Below, piece after piece: positions 57,080 to 64,000 of a DNA stretch of 64,000 nucleotides. The stretch is from assembly GCF_033096445.1 (NCBI RefSeq), contig NZ_AP028155.1, forward strand, positions 1,121,880 to 1,185,879, given 5' to 3'. Position 1 is the first letter of the stretch, and each line of letters begins with the position of its first letter. A program made the translations under genes and the position numbers. This DNA comes from Butyricimonas faecihominis (GTDB taxonomy: Bacteria; Bacteroidota; Bacteroidia; Bacteroidales; Marinifilaceae). The notes under the pieces were generated by a model, which was given only the letters and a program-made list of their open reading frames with translations, was not told the origin of the DNA and ran no database searches.

Positions 57080-57673
57080 TCAAATCTCAATCAAATGCCA
57101 TGGTTGCAAATCTCCGTAAATTTCATTCACAATTGCCGAATTCACAAAGGTTGTAAAACCACCTTCTTCAACGCCATTATTTGAATGAATGTGACCGAAA
57201 AGGTGATAATGTGGTCTTATTCTCTCAACTGCAGTTAACAATTCCTTTGAGCCATAATGAATATTATCATCAAAATCTAAAATTTCAAATGGTGGGCAAT
57301 GAGTTATGAGTATGTCCGTATCTAGACTGATATTCCTAATCGCTGTATTATTCAATCCTGACACACAATCCTGTACGAACATTGGAATGCCATGAAACTT
57401 CACACCTTCTATATTGACAGAAGAGTATCTAAGACCATAACAATTATTTGGAAGACCATCTATTTCGCTATTCCAAAGACAATCGTCATGGTTGCCCGCA
57501 ATAAAAATCTTATACTTATACGGCAGGTCACAGAACCAATTCAAAAAATCCAAAACTTCTCTTTCTGATCCTCCAAAGGTAAAATCACCCGAATGCACAA
57601 TCACATCGGCCTCAGGCAACCCTTTAAGTCGATTATGCTGACCATGCGTATCTGATAAATGAAGTATTTTCAT
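57080..57673 (-). CDS. Metallophosphoesterase
   Basis: 197 aa from the ATG at 57673; the frame allows a TTG at 57682, but the ATG overlaps the upstream stop as ATGA. All calcineurin-type metal motifs are seen: DTHGQ, HSGDF, GNHDD, THCPP and GHIH. These enzymes hydrolyse phosphodiesters or nucleotides such as cyclic dinucleotides, or remove 2',3'-cyclic phosphates. Directly coupled to the SLOG gene, and last in the RtcB cluster. Confidence 0.88.
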   Translation of the reverse strand: MKILHLSDTHGQHNRLKGLPEADVIVHSGDFTFGGSEREVLDFLNWFCDLPYKYKIFIAGNHDDCLWNSEIDGLPNNCYGLRYSSVNIEGVKFHGIPMFVQDCVSGLNNTAIRNISLDTDILITHCPPFEILDFDDNIHYGSKELLTAVERIRPHYHLFGHIHSNNGVEEGGFTTFVNSAIVNEIYGDLQPWHLIEI

Positions 57674-58164
57674 TTTATGCAATTATATTTATTTGTCTTT
57701 TTATACTGGAATACCCAAACTGGAATTCTTTTCTCACGGGCAATTTCTATCATGTGCTTTGTCCCATGAGACATTCCATCCCAAAACGCTACCAAATGGG
57801 TTGCGATAGACAACATATCTTCATTTCTAAGAATACCAGCCATACGAGGATGTGACTTCCAATTGGCAGGAAACAAGATTTTTGTCAATTCATACTCATC
57901 GGCATAACGGATTGCTAACGTATCTGCACCTTTCGCCATGCCAGATATTATTTTAATGGGATATTCATCAAAAATATCCGAAAGCCAAAAGAGTTCATTC
58001 AATTTAGCTGACATATATTCGTAGTCGTCAAAATCACGCCCTCCTGCTACAATGACCTTATAAGCATTGCGGTTACTGCTTTTAATCAGATATTTCATCA
58101 TCTCCTCTATTGCTTTACTTTCTTCTGGATTTATCTTAGTGATTTGCACAATTTTATTTTGCAT
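57670..58164 (-). CDS. DUF2493/YspA-type SLOG-family protein
   Basis: 164 aa. The Rossmann-like SLOG pattern is visible: VIVAGGRDFDDY (37-48), ISGMAKGADTLAIRYA (73-88), FPANWKSHPRMAGILRN and VAFWDGMSHGTKHMIE. SLOG proteins are predicted to bind or process nucleotide signals, and many occur in conflict systems. Coupled by ATGA to the phosphoesterase, suggesting the two act in sequence on one nucleotide. Confidence 0.82.
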   Translation of the reverse strand: MQNKIVQITKINPEESKAIEEMMKYLIKSSNRNAYKVIVAGGRDFDDYEYMSAKLNELFWLSDIFDEYPIKIISGMAKGADTLAIRYADEYELTKILFPANWKSHPRMAGILRNEDMLSIATHLVAFWDGMSHGTKHMIEIAREKRIPVWVFQYKKTNKYNCIK

Positions 58165-58212: not shown

Positions 58213-58503
58213 TTATTTGAAAATTTCTTTTAATTGTTTCCTAAACTCAGAGTCATATGAATCATCCCTGTCTTCATCGTCATCCTCTGCGCCATATTTC
58301 TCCTCAAATCTTACACAAGTTGCCAATTCCACAAGAATTGGATAGAACATCGGCCAAAACATAAAATGTCCTACAACAACACCGCATAATGCTTTTTGTA
58401 TACCAAAACCAGGTTTCCCGAGAAAGGAGAAACATCCACCGAGAACACCAAGGATAACACCATACCCAAGGACTGTGACTACTAACTTATCCTTGTACAT
58501 CAT
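58213..58503 (-). CDS. Small membrane protein with acidic tail, 96 aa
   Basis: Two membrane helices (LVVTVLGYGVILGVLGGCFS; ALCGVVVGHFMFWPMFYPIL) and a highly acidic cytoplasmic end (GAEDDDEDRDDSYDSEF). It overlaps the stop of the FtsZ-like B gene as ATGA. It could anchor the tubulin-like proteins to the membrane, as FtsA or ZipA do for FtsZ; inference only. Confidence 0.7.
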   Translation of the reverse strand: MMYKDKLVVTVLGYGVILGVLGGCFSFLGKPGFGIQKALCGVVVGHFMFWPMFYPILVELATCVRFEEKYGAEDDDEDRDDSYDSEFRKQLKEIFK

Positions 58504-59216
58504 GACTTTAATTCATTATAGGTTGTTATTATATCAATTCTAATGGATTCGCGCCTCATAGAGTCGGCAAAGGAAATGCCCCATACAATATCAATCTTTT
58601 GCGTAAGGCTTTCCACCCACTCTGATAATGAGGAAAAATCATCCATCATCAGTTGTGTTTCGTTATTGGGATTATGAACAAAATTTATGAGCAGCTTATT
58701 GCCATTCATTCCTTTATACCATTGGTCTATCTTCGGGACAGCTGTAGTAATTGGACTCTCTCCTTCTTGTTCTATACTCAATACATTGAATTTGCCAGAA
58801 TTCCTCAATATTTTGCAGATGTCATAAAAGTCTATGGAAATTTGGTTTGGCAATTGGAGATTATCCAAAATGGCTCTGATGCCGGAATAGAGTTCGGTTG
58901 TATTGCCCACCATGAGGCTATCAACTCCTTTTGGAAATGTAACTTCTTGTGTGCTAAAAACAAGCAGTAGTTGTACTTTGTCAGCGAAAACGGACACAGC
59001 TTCTGACAATCCATTGAAATAGCCATCTACAATGAAAATTCCCATTACTTCTCCATTGAATGACAAAACTCTGTTTCCATCAAATTTATCAATACTTATG
59101 ATTCGACCATATTTTGATTTTAACTCATTTAGAATGTAGCTAGTATTACCTAATCCTATGATTTTTACAAGTGGGTGTAATGTCATGTGATCATTAAATA
59201 TATTCTTTTCTTCCAT
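58500..59216 (-). CDS. FtsZ/tubulin-like protein B (T7 loop and C-terminal domain)
   Basis: 238 aa. The C-terminal half aligns by eye with FtsZ: SIDFYDICKIL (127-137) matches the T7 loop NVDFADV with both catalytic Asp positions (129, 132), then SPITTAVPKIDQW matches the segment before the C-terminal sheet, KLLINFVHNPN, and IVWGISFADSMRRESIRIDI matches the IIWG ... RVTVIAT end. The N-terminus starts with KIIGLGN but the GGGTGTG (T4) loop is absent and the domain is shortened. It would not bind GTP well alone. Located one base after the exonuclease gene. Confidence 0.72.
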   Translation of the reverse strand: MEEKNIFNDHMTLHPLVKIIGLGNTSYILNELKSKYGRIISIDKFDGNRVLSFNGEVMGIFIVDGYFNGLSEAVSVFADKVQLLLVFSTQEVTFPKGVDSLMVGNTTELYSGIRAILDNLQLPNQISIDFYDICKILRNSGKFNVLSIEQEGESPITTAVPKIDQWYKGMNGNKLLINFVHNPNNETQLMMDDFSSLSEWVESLTQKIDIVWGISFADSMRRESIRIDIITTYNELKS

Positions 59217-59217
59217 A

Positions 59218-59709
59218 TTATAAGAGCTTTAATGCTATGGCAGCACAGGCCTCTGCATCAGCAATAGCATTGTGGTGATTGATGAGATTGTAGTCACAAG
59301 TTTCAGCGACTGTATCAAGACGATGGTTGGGTAATTCCGGTTGGAGCTTACGTGAAGCTCTTAGAGTACAATAAAATGTATATTCCGGATATACCATTTC
59401 ATATATCTCAAACACAGCTCGGAGACACCCCTCATCAAAAGAACTATTGTGAGCCACAAACGGTAATCCCTTAATAAGAGGCTCTATTTTCCTCCAAACT
59501 TCAGGAAAGGTCGGAGCACTATCGGTGTCTTCGTATGTCAAACCATAGCTCTCACTCGCCCAATGAGTATAGTAATTTGGTAACGGATGAATAAGATTGT
59601 AGAATCTATCAACAATCTTACCACTACGAACGATTACAACTCCTATACTACATACGCTTGAACGGTATTGGTTGGCCGTTTCAAAATCTATGGCTACAAA
59701 ATTGGTCAT
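59218..59709 (-). CDS. DEDDh 3'-5' exonuclease (DnaQ-like)
   Basis: 163 aa. All four motif residues are present: DFE in VAIDFETANQY, the second Asp in VAHNSSFDEGCLR, and HNAIADAEACA with the His and last Asp. Stand-alone members degrade DNA or RNA 3' ends (e.g. RNase T, oligoribonuclease, epsilon). In a cluster with RtcB a function trimming RNA ends before ligation is reasonable, though a DNA substrate is not excluded. Confidence 0.87.
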   Translation of the reverse strand: MTNFVAIDFETANQYRSSVCSIGVVIVRSGKIVDRFYNLIHPLPNYYTHWASESYGLTYEDTDSAPTFPEVWRKIEPLIKGLPFVAHNSSFDEGCLRAVFEIYEMVYPEYTFYCTLRASRKLQPELPNHRLDTVAETCDYNLINHHNAIADAEACAAIALKLL

Positions 59710-59719
59710 ATTTACAATA

Positions 59720-60571
59720 TTAGTCCCACCATTTATGTATTTCTTTCTCTAATAGTTTAAAAACAAGATGGCATGCTTTTGCCGCACGAAGTTCACAAGT
59801 TTGACTGTCTATAATATCTTTATCATCTGACAACTCATCTTTTTTGAAACGATGTGCATTTCTGTAATTCAGATAAAACTTTTGTCCAGATATTCCATCG
59901 TCAATGGCAATGTCAATCAATTTACAACACAATTCCATTCGCGATACATCCACATCCCAACCTACATAGCGTTGATGATAATACCAGTAACCAATATTAA
60001 ACTCAATCTTGCGTCTTAGAATTATGAGTATTGGACTCCAATCATAAGCGTAGTCGTAATTAATGGTGTGTTTCCAAAAATATTGTTTTTTCCTTTCAAG
60101 GCTTTTTGCCTCTGCTTTATTTCTATCGGTATCTGATTGAATGCGTTGTGGCTCATCATCTTTCAAAGATTTCAACCAGTCTGCCATTGCTTTATCTGCT
60201 TGTCTGCCTGTTTCAAATCCATGTAGAGTAGACATGTACAGTATTAAAGCGAGAATTTCTTCATCTTTAATTTTCTGTTCAGTAGAAACTTTTACCTTTT
60301 GGTCGATAAGAACCTCTTGACGATAACACACATTGTCCACACTCAAGTATAGCAATTTTTCTGACAACGTTTCCCTGTCAAAATCATATACTTCTCTGAT
60401 TTGAATAGGCTTACCATTAGGACTTTTAGGCAAGGATTTAAGTTCCTCATATAAGTCAATGTAGAATTGCTTTACATCCTCTGTTTCACCGTATTGAGAC
60501 CTCAAAATATCCCAGACTTTGTTGAATGATGTCTGTTCTATGTATTGTCTATATGTTTTGATTTTTTCCAT
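59720..60571 (-). CDS. Hypothetical protein of the RtcB cluster, 283 aa
   Basis: Soluble, helical, charged; no recognised family. A helical middle (SLERKKQYFWKHTINYDYAY) precedes a Trp/Tyr-rich region (FNIGYWYYHQRYVGWDVDVS) and a C-terminal helix pair (LRAAKACHLVFKLLEKEIHK). It lies 4 bp from rtcB and 10 bp from the exonuclease gene, so it is co-translated with them and is likely a partner of one of the two. Confidence 0.65.
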   Translation of the reverse strand: MEKIKTYRQYIEQTSFNKVWDILRSQYGETEDVKQFYIDLYEELKSLPKSPNGKPIQIREVYDFDRETLSEKLLYLSVDNVCYRQEVLIDQKVKVSTEQKIKDEEILALILYMSTLHGFETGRQADKAMADWLKSLKDDEPQRIQSDTDRNKAEAKSLERKKQYFWKHTINYDYAYDWSPILIILRRKIEFNIGYWYYHQRYVGWDVDVSRMELCCKLIDIAIDDGISGQKFYLNYRNAHRFKKDELSDDKDIIDSQTCELRAAKACHLVFKLLEKEIHKWWD

Positions 60572-60575
60572 ATTA

Positions 60576-61829
60576 TTAGTGTGCTTTGAAGTTGAATATT
60601 GGATGGATGATTTTTCTTATAGAAACCGTATCAGTAATATTTGCGATAATCTCTTCAGCCGGCTTATAAACCATAGGAGATTCGTCACGAGTAAAGTCGT
60701 TCACACTCTCCGAGTAGATTCCCTCCATTGATTTTTCAAACTCCTCCAATTTGATTTGCTCATAAGCTTGGGTACGGCTGAGTACACGACCAGCGCCATG
60801 TGGCGCAGAGTAGTTCCAATCTGGATTTCCTTTACCTATGCAGAGCAAAGAACCATCACGCATATTCAGCGGAATGATGCATCGTTCGCCCTCAACGGCT
60901 GAAATAGCACCTTTGCGTACCATATTGTCATCACTGATGTAGTTGTGTATACTCTCGAACTCTTCCAAAATTTCAATGTTTGGGAAAAACTTAAGCAAGA
61001 GTCGGGATATGAGTTTACGATTGAGTACCGCCCAATGTTGACAGAGGCGCATATCGTAGAGATAATCCTCACGTGCCTGATTCTCAACATAACAAAGCTC
61101 TGCCAGAATTATCGGTTCCGCTTCGTTATGTTCCTTTCGCATTCTTTTGATGACAGACTGAAGTTCCGACCTACGCCCTGCAGCCTTGTACTCCTCAATA
61201 GTACGTTTAATCAACTCTTCTAATTCGTCATATCCTTCCGTTAGGTGATGAACAGCCACAGTCTGATAGATATCAGCCACCTGCTTACCGAGATTCCGGC
61301 TACCGGTATGAATCACGAGATACACGTTTCCGTCATCGTCCCTATCCAGTTCTATGAAGTGGTTTCCACCACCGAGCGAACCGATAGCTTTATTGATACG
61401 GTTGCTATCCTTCAGTGAGCGATAACATCGTAATGATGCAACAATCTGTTTAGCCTCGCGATAGATATCCATTTCCTCACCAATGAGAGGACTAAAGCCA
61501 AATCGGTCTTCTCTGACAATCATTCCAGACGGAATGTTGCTATAAATAAAATTATGGAACGCATGAAAATCAATGTCCGATACTTTTCCAAGATTAAGAA
61601 CGCGCATACCGCAGCCAATGTCAACGCCAACGATATTTGGAATTATCTTATCGCCAAGATTACCTGTAAAGCCTATTACACATCCGGCACCAGCATGAAC
61701 GTCTGGCATAATACGTATCTTCTTGTCCGAAAAGACATCTATGGATAATAATCTTTTTACTTGCTCCAATGCATTTTCATCAATCGTGTCTGTGAATATC
61801 TTTACGTCATATCCTTCTATAGTTCTCAT
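60576..61829 (-). CDS. rtcB: RNA-splicing ligase RtcB
   Basis: 417 aa. Joins a 2',3'-cyclic phosphate or 3'-phosphate RNA end to a 5'-OH using GTP and manganese. Motifs: PDVHAGAG (42-49), GVDIGCGM (68-75) with the metal Cys, GGGNHFIE (153-160), HTGSRNLG (174-181) and HGAGR (344-348), whose His344 is the guanylated nucleophile. Every catalytic position appears intact. It is shorter than the 480-aa archaeal type and near the compact bacterial type. It is the enzymatic core of the cluster. Confidence 0.96.
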   Translation of the reverse strand: MRTIEGYDVKIFTDTIDENALEQVKRLLSIDVFSDKKIRIMPDVHAGAGCVIGFTGNLGDKIIPNIVGVDIGCGMRVLNLGKVSDIDFHAFHNFIYSNIPSGMIVREDRFGFSPLIGEEMDIYREAKQIVASLRCYRSLKDSNRINKAIGSLGGGNHFIELDRDDDGNVYLVIHTGSRNLGKQVADIYQTVAVHHLTEGYDELEELIKRTIEEYKAAGRRSELQSVIKRMRKEHNEAEPIILAELCYVENQAREDYLYDMRLCQHWAVLNRKLISRLLLKFFPNIEILEEFESIHNYISDDNMVRKGAISAVEGERCIIPLNMRDGSLLCIGKGNPDWNYSAPHGAGRVLSRTQAYEQIKLEEFEKSMEGIYSESVNDFTRDESPMVYKPAEEIIANITDTVSIRKIIHPIFNFKAH

Positions 61830-61930
61830 ATCTTTTATTGTTAAGGAGCATATTCAATATGTAATCTTTCTGTGTCACTTATTTTGCACAAAGCCGCAAC
61901 TTTAAAAGCCTATTAGCAGTATTTTTTTCA

Positions 61931-62437
61931 TCATTTTTCCTGAAATATTTCCGCATATTTGCTACAGAGTATCGCATCCATATCAATCATACTGAGGTCT
62001 CCATCAAGTTTATCATTCTCCTGAATGATGACATCGTCACACAAAATTTTCAAGTTTTCAAGACAACCCATAGCAACAGCTTGCTTATCCTCACCCTCAA
62101 ATGAGAATGGCATTGCGACAAAGGCTATTACGTTCTCCACATTCATATCTTCACTAGACCATGCAGCACAAAGTGCATATGTACCACCTGTTTTACCACT
62201 GAGTCCTGCTGTTATAATAAGAGTTTCAACCCCATTGAGAACCCCATTGAAATACTCCTCGGCTTTTGCTTCTTCTGGCAAAAGGATGTGTGTATCAGTT
62301 TCTCTTCCATGCATATAAAGCGACTCCTTGTCTGTATCATAATAGACAAACTCGGCATCACCAACACCGATGCCTTGTTTTCTGATGGAGTCAGCGATAT
62401 TGCCACCAGCGTTTCCAATCGCAACTATCTTTTTCAT
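61931..62437 (-). CDS. FtsZ/tubulin-like protein A (nucleotide-binding half)
   Basis: 168 aa. Aligns with the GTPase domain of FtsZ: T1 AIGNAGGN (6-13), T2 YYDTDKESL (32-40), T4 signature AGLSGKTGGT (77-86, against AGMGGGTGTG), MPFSFEGEDKQ (109-119, FtsZ PFNFEG), and ENDKL (140-144, FtsZ PNDKL). The protein ends right after this point; the H7 helix, T7 loop and C-terminal domain are missing, and these are found in protein B three genes downstream. It probably binds GTP but needs a partner for hydrolysis. Confidence 0.8.
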   Translation of the reverse strand: MKKIVAIGNAGGNIADSIRKQGIGVGDAEFVYYDTDKESLYMHGRETDTHILLPEEAKAEEYFNGVLNGVETLIITAGLSGKTGGTYALCAAWSSEDMNVENVIAFVAMPFSFEGEDKQAVAMGCLENLKILCDDVIIQENDKLDGDLSMIDMDAILCSKYAEIFQEK

Positions 62438-62515: not shown

Positions 62516-62740
62516 TTACTTAGACATTGTGTAATCCAAATAGCTTGCAGTGAGCATCTGCGCTTTTTTCATATCAACTCCATACTTTGTCATGAAGGCA
62601 GTAGCAATTTGTTCTCGTCCCTGCGGGTTGTTAAGTGGGTTAGATGTCGTAGGTGTAACGACTTCAACGGTCATCCCTTTTTCGACAAATACGCCATTGC
62701 ATTGGCGCTTGTTTTTTGTTGTAAAATTCCAGAGTGGCAT
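62516..62740 (-). CDS. Small hypothetical protein, 74 aa (DUF6140-like)
   Basis: Begins MPLWNFTTKNKRQCNGVFVE, then KGMTVEVVTPTTSNPLNN and a helix KYGVDMKKAQMLTASYLDY. This pattern (a short beta part followed by KGM-VEVVT) recalls DUF6140-type proteins of Bacteroidales, a name from memory. Placed 21 bp after the repeat-protein gene. Unknown function. Confidence 0.6.
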   Translation of the reverse strand: MPLWNFTTKNKRQCNGVFVEKGMTVEVVTPTTSNPLNNPQGREQIATAFMTKYGVDMKKAQMLTASYLDYTMSK

Positions 62741-62761: not shown

Positions 62762-63274
62762 TTAGATTGAGTAAATTGTTTCTTTCAGAAGTTGCTCAGC
62801 CTTGTTTTCTACGAGTTTATCCCATAGTCGCGAGGTCTGTAACTTATTGAGAGGAATGTATTGTTGGTAGCGTTCCACAAACTCTTCGGCATGTTCAATA
62901 TCCCAATTATCAATGATGTCGGCCCAGTCCATCATATCGACAAACTTGTCAAGTAATTTCCAATTGTTATAGATTTCATCGCGAGCCGAAAGGTTTTTCC
63001 AGTTCCATTTTTCCTTGAACTTGTTAAGATTCTCATCCGTAAGGATGTTCGCATTGCAGCACTGCGAAAAATCAGACCAGTTAATCTTGCCCGCAAATTT
63101 GGCAATACCAGTGGCTGTCCATAAGATATTTCGGTTCTGCGATAGTGTTTCCCAATCGAGTTTGTCCTGAAACTTATCGATCATCTCCATGCTCAAACTT
63201 TCGTCTGAAACTTTCTTCCAAGCCTCTGCATATAGTACGGAGGTGAGGAACTCATTGTTGGTTATCTGTCCCAT
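62762..63274 (-). CDS. Tryptophan-repeat protein, 170 aa
   Basis: Four imperfect repeats with the pattern (I/L)xKFxxK(L/I)(D/N)WxxxS: IDKFQDKLDWETLS, IAKFAGKINWSDFS, LNKFKEKWNWKNLS and LDKFVDMMDWADII, in a helical protein, spaced 20-35 residues. Probably an alpha-solenoid binding module. It is the first gene of the RtcB cluster, close behind a promoter. Confidence 0.7.
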   Translation of the reverse strand: MGQITNNEFLTSVLYAEAWKKVSDESLSMEMIDKFQDKLDWETLSQNRNILWTATGIAKFAGKINWSDFSQCCNANILTDENLNKFKEKWNWKNLSARDEIYNNWKLLDKFVDMMDWADIIDNWDIEHAEEFVERYQQYIPLNKLQTSRLWDKLVENKAEQLLKETIYSI

Positions 63275-63412: not shown

Positions 63413-64000
63413 TTATTTATAAAGTTCGTTCATATCGGTAGCTATTTTTGCGAACTGATTACGAAGCTCTAATGGCTGAATCACCTCTACATCAGCTCCA
63501 TATCTTAGAAGCTCCTGGATGAAATCGAATGTTGGCCGCAGAAAAAAAGTAAACGTAGAGGAATACATTTCTGTATGTGCTTCATATTGAGTATGATGTA
63601 ACGGAAGCGAACGGAAATAGTTCTGTTGACCATTTGAAACTTTAATTTCAATGACTTCGGGTTTATCATTCGTACCAATGATAATGCCTATAACATCATT
63701 GAAGTAGCTTTCAGCATCAAATCCTTTGGGTAGATTGAACGTGCTCTCGTTCTGCTCAATAGAATGAATGCGGTCAAGTCCATAAATACGAATATTTCCA
63801 TCCCATGTACTCCGTGCAAGAAGATACCAGCGTTGTTTGAAGACCTTAACACAATACGGTTCAACTTCAAACGTAGAAGGTCGCTCTCGATGAAAGCTTT
63901 GATATGTAATTGTCAATGTGTAATTATCTCGCATTGCCTCAATTATCGGAGTAAGGAATCGCTGTCCAGAAGGGATTTGTTCAAACAGAATCCGCTGCTT
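63413..64000 (-). CDS. WYL-domain regulator, N-terminus beyond the window
   Basis: The frame stays open to the right edge; the ATG at 63934 is internal (residues before it read RFLTPIIEA). The visible 195 residues contain FKQRWYLLARSTWDGNIRIY and GLDRIHSIEQ, the WYL core, then a WCX-like C-terminal part (FIQELLRYGADVEVIQPLEL). WYL proteins sense nucleic-acid ligands and often control RNA-repair and defence operons; RtcB operons are known from other bacteria to be governed by dedicated regulators. It is the likely regulator of the downstream cluster. Confidence 0.88.
   Translation of the reverse strand, partial: KQRILFEQIPSGQRFLTPIIEAMRDNYTLTITYQSFHRERPSTFEVEPYCVKVFKQRWYLLARSTWDGNIRIYGLDRIHSIEQNESTFNLPKGFDAESYFNDVIGIIIGTNDKPEVIEIKVSNGQQNYFRSLPLHHTQYEAHTEMYSSTFTFFLRPTFDFIQELLRYGADVEVIQPLELRNQFAKIATDMNELYK

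Follow-up and report, generated by a model that had tools for sequence, protein, structure and literature searches.

Why should a gut bacterium that possesses ordinary FtsZ also carry two short FtsZ relatives, each with a different part of that protein, on either side of a gene for an RNA ligase? The question is raised by a window of 64,000 nucleotides (the whole stretch of DNA analysed) from Butyricimonas faecihominis (assembly GCF_033096445.1, contig NZ_AP028155.1, positions 1,121,880 to 1,185,879 of the forward strand), in which a first-pass annotation described a tubulin/FtsZ protein split over two genes that flank rtcB. Both open reading frames are present on the minus strand and encode protein A, 168 amino acids long (61931..62437), and protein B, 238 amino acids long (58500..59216). 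Protein A is a free-standing FtsZ-type GTP-binding domain that stops before the T7 loop; protein B is an FtsZ relative with an apparently vestigial N-terminal domain, a T7 loop and the C-terminal domain. Anatomy, conservation, co-occurrence and cluster context can be read from the sequences, and the explanation towards which they lead us, still tentatively, is that A and B may be dedicated, complementary derivatives of FtsZ with one face each, forming a dead-end FtsZ-type contact with each other or with host FtsZ and linked to RNA repair.

Within an FtsZ filament, the GTP bound by one subunit is contacted by the T7 aspartates of its neighbour (PMC8936486). In S. aureus FtsZ (SaFtsZ) the attacking water is held by G72 of loop T3 together with D210 and D213, and in the filaments D213 is water-bridged to R143 of the neighbouring subunit; the R143K variant assembles with reduced GTPase activity, and D210N, D213N, N208L and R143Q do not assemble (PMC8936486). 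The roles of the loops discussed below were assigned after this source and PMC8456036.

The nucleotide side of this joint is recognised in protein A by several comparisons. It scores 42 bits against Pfam family Tubulin (PF00091, cut-off 33), its best match in PDB is an FtsZ chain (E 5e-10), and a profile of two A proteins aligns with a profile of Bacteroidales FtsZ over FtsZ positions 21-187 with a probability of 99.4, as the earlier assignment to FtsZ had proposed. Against the ftsZ model TIGR00065 only model positions 90-176 are aligned (51.3 bits). The T4 loop (GLSGKTGG) was placed at 62183..62206 on the minus strand by alignment to FtsZ AGMGGGTGTGAAP, the coordinates being derived by hand from the open reading frame. 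The A family consists of 12 genes, 11 of them intact, with products of 168-232 amino acids; the broken copy (L251:4450-5019), which reads as two open reading frames, was excluded from the alignment. All seven members given to PF00091 (7 of the 11 intact ones) match it at E<=0.001. In the alignment the asparagine of T1, the threonine of T4, the P[FY]x[FY]EG motif and the asparagine of T6 are each present in 11/11 proteins, so that T1, T4, T5 and T6 are kept, and the place of SaFtsZ R143 is basic in ten of eleven (8 K, 2 R, 1 T), comparable residues being found in the 23 Bacteroidales FtsZ proteins compared (R 11, K 12). The place of D46 is an aspartate in 7/11 and that of Q48 a glutamine in 0/11. 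No intact A has T7 or the C-terminal domain (0/11), and the C-terminal extension of five A proteins of 226-232 amino acids contains no recognisable T7. Two more distant A-like frames were left outside these counts: a free-standing protein of 229 amino acids resembling the FtsZ N-terminal domain (L258:1236-1925, minus strand, genome G351; A profile E 1.1e-14), whose genome has no match to B, and one of 238 amino acids (L261:1393-2109, minus strand, genome G585; E 2.6e-17), whose genome also has a normal A.

Protein B is far more divergent and becomes legible mainly as a family. The window protein aligns only with positions 194-323 of TIGR00065 (E 3.4e-7, 29.9 bits), has nothing over the cut-off in Pfam and as a single sequence gives no significant match in PDB (best E 0.36). 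A profile of 22 B proteins matches FtsZ in PDB at 3.3e-16, which establishes homology of the C-terminal domain, and a four-member profile aligns with the FtsZ profile with a probability of 99.2. Of 24 genes, 22 were aligned; the broken copies L217:2459-3186 and L223:9548-9974, each reading as two open reading frames, were left out, and the B of L222, cut by a contig end, was kept. Median pairwise identity is 29%, and TIGR00065 is matched at E<=0.001 by 15 of the 22 members, seven not doing so. Loop T4 is deleted in 22/22, as the first-pass annotation had described for the window protein, and so is T5, and the PFxFEG motif is likewise lost in 22/22. What is retained is the T7 loop, ISIDFYD in the window protein (58821..58841, minus strand, coordinates again derived by hand), with the IDFYD motif noted earlier. 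Its last aspartate, at the place of SaFtsZ D213, is an aspartate in 22/22 and forms one of only two invariant columns; the first, at the place of D210, is present in 17/22. The proposed division of labour, with the GTP site in A and the T7 aspartate in B, thus holds across both families (11 A and 22 B).

The idea of a single protein divided between two genes did not survive. The N-terminal domain of FtsZ (chain positions 6-66 and 116-161) is weakly matched by positions 9-118 of the B profile, with domain scores of 16.9 and 5.4. B therefore seems to be a shrunken FtsZ-type protein with a remnant of that domain, more than a C-terminal half, and the view of A and B as literal complementary pieces of one chain is ruled out. 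No alignment is obtained between the A profile and the B profile, as expected if different parts of FtsZ were kept. In trees with 33 FtsZ proteins all 11 A form one clade (support 0.989) and all 22 B another (support 0.999), long branches being a caveat in both cases; neither family looks like the product of repeated, recent truncation. Among 11 A there are 6 pairs over 55% identity, and their ratios of nonsynonymous to synonymous substitutions (dN/dS) are 0.10-0.16; 13 B give 20 such pairs, with ratios of 0.13-0.41. That the genes are pseudogenes or chance pieces of host FtsZ is ruled out by the single clades, by dN/dS well below 1 in close pairs and by recurring neighbours.

Neither family fits FtsZ proper, FtsZl1 or FtsZl2. 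A and B match different parts of FtsZ, the GTP-binding domain and the T7 loop with the C-terminal domain respectively; in contrast to FtsZ proper, which has both faces in one chain, they keep one face each (T7 in 0/11 A; T4 and T5 in 0/22 B), and their scores of 51.3 and 29.9 bits are far below the TIGR00065 cut-off of 295.2 bits. B also lacks the nucleotide loops of PF00091, including the T4 signature. FtsZl1, described by Makarova and Koonin in 2010, resembles A in having the FtsZ N-terminal domain without recognisable T6-H7 or FtsZ C-terminal domain, and is a long protein with a coiled coil and a helical domain, tied to membrane-remodelling genes (PMC2875224). A is in contrast a bare domain of 168-232 amino acids, too short for that architecture, keeps T6 and occurs in RtcB/WYL clusters, and the accessible part of the FtsZl1 description shows no partner like B. 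FtsZl2 combines N-terminal domain motifs with T7 and a C-terminal region of about 300 amino acids (PMC2875224); A has no T7, and B neither T4 nor T5. No PADLOC model matches A, and B matches only Cas6b2 at E 0.0064, taken as chance. In a full-text literature search no title or abstract described a free-standing FtsZ N-terminal domain, a relative of FtsZ with T7 only, or RtcB clusters that contain FtsZ derivatives; an earlier mention in an RNA-repair survey is possible. Alpha- and beta-tubulin are a related pair that share a longitudinal GTP interface, both binding GTP, having both faces and polymerising, whereas A and B each lack one face. The window genome also encodes, far from A and B, a free-standing FtsZ C-terminal domain of 146 amino acids with a T7 loop (LDRGD; L036:7924-8364, plus strand; genome coordinates C1:4753423-4753860), which aligns with FtsZ 205-320, falls outside the B clade and adjoins genes that we take to be fimbria-like; a 99% copy is present in genome G009, and none was found in four other genomes of the same genus searched.

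Do A and B go together? A was found in 11 of the 22 B-bearing genomes (one A being broken) and in one of 58 B-free genomes (G471), a difference with a Fisher p of 6.9e-7, which should be read with the caveats that the search profile had been built with 7 of the 11 A, that the genomes are related and that many are fragmented. The 22 comprise the window genome and 21 of 198 genomes from the family of a Bacteroidales metagenome-assembled genome in which both proteins were found (locus L154); the 58 are the first by label of the 177 without B. A lies on the same stretch in 8/24 B loci, and in four of these the genes form one-strand rows with TM, a small hydrophobic protein: A-DUF6140-B-TM in L210 and L218, and A-340aa-B-TM in L214 and L217 (B broken in the latter). 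The expectation that the two would always be found together near rtcB holds in part: A and B are associated in genomes and share clusters, and the strict rule fails, with B alone in 11/22 genomes and RtcB mostly without either.

How, then, could two such proteins work? A would be the GTP-side face of the FtsZ longitudinal contact, with T1, T4, T5, T6 and a basic residue following FEG, and B the opposite face, with the C-terminal domain and a T7 loop carrying the second aspartate and with no recognisable nucleotide site. We infer that the T7 loop of B docks onto GTP held by a partner of the FtsZ fold, which would be A where it is present and otherwise host FtsZ. Since A is devoid of T7 and the C-terminal domain and B of a GTP site, such a contact could not grow; it may act as a GTP-dependent clamp, a switch or a filament cap, without a polymer. 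The missing T3 glycine of A and the losses at the D210 and N208 places in many B suggest a clamp that hydrolyses GTP slowly or not at all, and host FtsZ as the partner of B would supply T3. B is probably tied to the membrane by TM, tethering being suggested by the overlap of the two genes, and the WYL and RtcB neighbours suggest a switch deployed when RNA has been cut. The purpose is the least certain step: division may be held, or repair proteins gathered at the membrane, until the RNA is mended. In the fullest version A is the GTP-loaded half and B the membrane-tied T7 half of a pair that does not polymerise, and WYL-controlled RNA-repair clusters use this pair, or its halves singly on host FtsZ, to stop or time division as an RNA-damage checkpoint; this version is speculative and rather unlikely to hold in all its parts. 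FtsZ and tubulin hydrolyse GTP at the joint between neighbours, which is hard to separate from polymerisation, and a natural pair of a GTP side and a catalytic-loop side would allow the joint to be studied as a two-body reaction. Such a pair would also connect the cell-division machinery of gut Bacteroidales with damaged RNA and its repair. The FtsZ superfamily gains two families, A and B.

Several observations weigh against a dedicated A-B contact linked to RNA repair. The T3 glycine (the place of SaFtsZ G72) is gone in 11/11 A, which argues against brisk GTP hydrolysis; the first T7 aspartate is lost in 5/22 B, and the T7 asparagine (the place of N208) is kept in just 3/22 and lost in 19/22. 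D213 also starts helix H8, and the invariant aspartate at its place may be kept as a helix cap. B occurs without A in 11/22 genomes, including G502, where B lies on a contig of 3.3 Mb. Loci L210 and L154 share B at 84% identity and A at only 28%; over 28 pairs of 8 genomes the A and B identities are correlated with a Spearman coefficient of 0.08 and a Pearson coefficient of 0.38 (p 0.047), and after removal of one close pair the values are -0.01 and 0.03. A and B subtypes reassort, and the co-variation test is not supportive. The co-occurrence could reflect shared mobile islands only, which would give the same signal. Of 69 RtcB-centred stretches two hold B and none holds A. Finally, the role in RNA repair or division is deduced from neighbours, and the RNA-repair label from homology.

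The most probable of the alternatives is that A and B act on host FtsZ and not on each other, B capping its GTP face and A its T7 face, as division inhibitors for RNA damage in the manner of SulA, which inhibits division upon DNA damage. Canonical FtsZ is available in both A/B genomes searched with the ftsZ model: two genes in the window genome, ordinary, full-length and in tandem (C1:1489775-1492111; L001, L002), and one in G445. The B of G502 (L216), a genome in which A was not found, keeps both T7 aspartates, and the reassortment of subtypes fits independent action. Described inhibitors of FtsZ include a peptide docked at T7 and MciZ, also a peptide (PMC8456036). The action of SulA, MciZ and other inhibitors on one FtsZ face is a possible likeness, to be taken as a lead. 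A and B differ from them in being related to FtsZ. To our knowledge, SulA, MciZ and the other FtsZ inhibitors are not of the FtsZ fold. Against this reading, the co-occurrence of A and B exceeds what independent inhibitors would need, and the genes form one-strand rows in four loci; capping of host FtsZ by each protein separately is regarded as rather unlikely.

Less probable is a decoy or guard function, in which A and B mimic FtsZ, bind phage FtsZ inhibitors and thereby shield FtsZ or trigger an RNA-directed cluster. A bacterial immune protein activated by the complex of a phage FtsZ inhibitor with FtsZ has been described (PMC13423816), and genes of JetC/JetD and GmrSD/DUF262-like types lie near the cluster in the window genome (L038). 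A decoy, however, need not keep exactly both catalytic faces, the close pairs give no sign of fast evolution (dN/dS 0.10-0.41) and no PADLOC model matches A. Equally improbable in our judgement is the fast composite GTPase of the first-pass annotation, in which GTP bound by A would be hydrolysed efficiently only once the T7 loop of B joins. The residues of the catalytic face kept on both sides and the co-occurrence speak for it; the absent T3 glycine and the losses at the D210 and N208 places, set out above, speak against it. An obligate heteropolymer, which the annotation also suggested, is not supported, given the 11/22 genomes with B and no A and the fact that neither protein has both faces, so that an A-B pair could not extend. 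It is very improbable that modular islands merely carry A and B together as unrelated cargo with separate jobs: all aligned members would then have lost exactly opposite faces by coincidence. This reading has in its favour that island content is very mixed, that A and B lie on different contigs in G627, G558 and G622, and that a distant A-like frame stands alone (L258 in G351).

A and B are set in a gene cluster on the minus strand whose members are mostly recognisable. Three genes separate A from B: the predicted RtcB-type RNA ligase (60576..61829) matches PF01139 at E 3.7e-58 and 198 bits (cut-off 27), the DUF6557-like protein (59720..60571) matches PF20194 below its cut-off, and the DEDDh-type exonuclease (59218..59709) matches PF00929 at E 6.5e-20 and the PADLOC DEDDh model at 1.6e-24. 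The gene of TM, a small hydrophobic, glycine-rich protein (58213..58503; hydropathy maximum 2.21, no Pfam family over cut-off) and a possible membrane anchor, overlaps the end of B. It is followed by a YspA-type SLOG protein (57670..58164; PF10686 E 4.4e-14) and a calcineurin-type phosphoesterase (57080..57682; PF00149 E 2e-13), which is found immediately downstream of A in L154, L221, L249 and L253. On the other side of A are a DUF6140 protein (62516..62740; PF19637 E 7.9e-21), which has relatives lodged between the A and B genes of L210 and L218, a protein of 170 amino acids without assigned function (62762..63274; also in L154 and L216), and a WYL-WCX regulator (63413..64000; PF13280 E 1.7e-17, scored as L037:19293-19880), the gene of which runs beyond the window. 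As in RtcAB/RtcR operons, RtcB adjoins a ligand-sensing type of regulator; here WYL-WCX replaces the CARF protein RtcR, and the exonuclease, the phosphoesterase and the FtsZ derivatives are added.

The same neighbours recur elsewhere in islands of very mixed gene content. On 24 B stretches RtcB was counted 13 times (in two, L224 and L225, only as a divergent type), WYL 17, the phosphoesterase 12, TM 12 and the exonuclease 9 times, and on 13 A stretches (two of which carry one gene, that of G447) RtcB 8, WYL 9 and the phosphoesterase 8 times; these are lower bounds, as several stretches are cut by contig ends. An RMMBL gene (an RNA-type metallo-beta-lactamase) adjoins A in L154. Into the DUF6557-like relative at L097:11771-13219 (plus strand) a HAD domain known from "Swiss Army Knife RNA repair proteins" (HAD_SAK_2, PF18143 E 1e-15) is inserted; no such insertion was detected in the protein of the window. 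L220, L249, L250, L253, L224 and L225 have a divergent second type of RtcB close to the WYL/phosphoesterase end of the cluster, and both types are present in L220, L249 and L250. Upstream of the RtcB cluster the window genome has Wadjet-type JetC/JetD genes (L038:13496-17439, minus strand) and a GmrSD/DUF262-like pair (L038:708-4866, minus strand).

Searches starting from the window proteins recover few relatives. A matches 54 of 55 other genomes of the same family, but only in frames of at least 323 amino acids, which are their FtsZ, and B frames at E<=1e-14 are confined to the window genome among 393 genomes of the order. Among the matches listed in the search of the order with A, five short frames outside the window genome were examined; four proved to be FtsZ genes truncated at the end of a contig, and the fifth is the distant frame of L258. 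On the stretches fetched for ten RtcB relatives of the order (L084-L093) there is no A or B. RtcB was the more productive query: relatives with about 80% identity were found in MT837932 and in the IMG/VR record L097, both with an adjoining B, and a search with the profile of both B proteins uncovered the metagenome-assembled genome of L154 and so the family already mentioned, in 21 of whose 198 genomes B is present. That family probably belongs to the set labelled as the same order as the window genome, as duplicated coordinates (G365 = G450, G080 = G458) suggest. Neighbourhoods of B together with a search by A profile gave A in 12 genomes in all.

In mobile elements the harvest was small. IMG/VR scans with A, B and host FtsZ gave nothing, and a two-member B profile returned only L097 again; by tblastn, A was found neither in plasmids nor in phages, a long A not in phages and the window B not in phages, and the B of L214 matched only MT837932 among phages. 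MT837522 and MT836225, considered as phage-borne B or A, carry ordinary FtsZ genes, and a Segatella plasmid match is a full FtsZ. Haloarcula virus HJTV-2 gave a weak match at E 0.1, and two weak plasmid matches were obtained with a divergent B at 24-25% identity, one annotated as FtsZ and one unannotated. Within the family of the window genome at least two FtsZ-type matches are present in 49 of 52 genomes.

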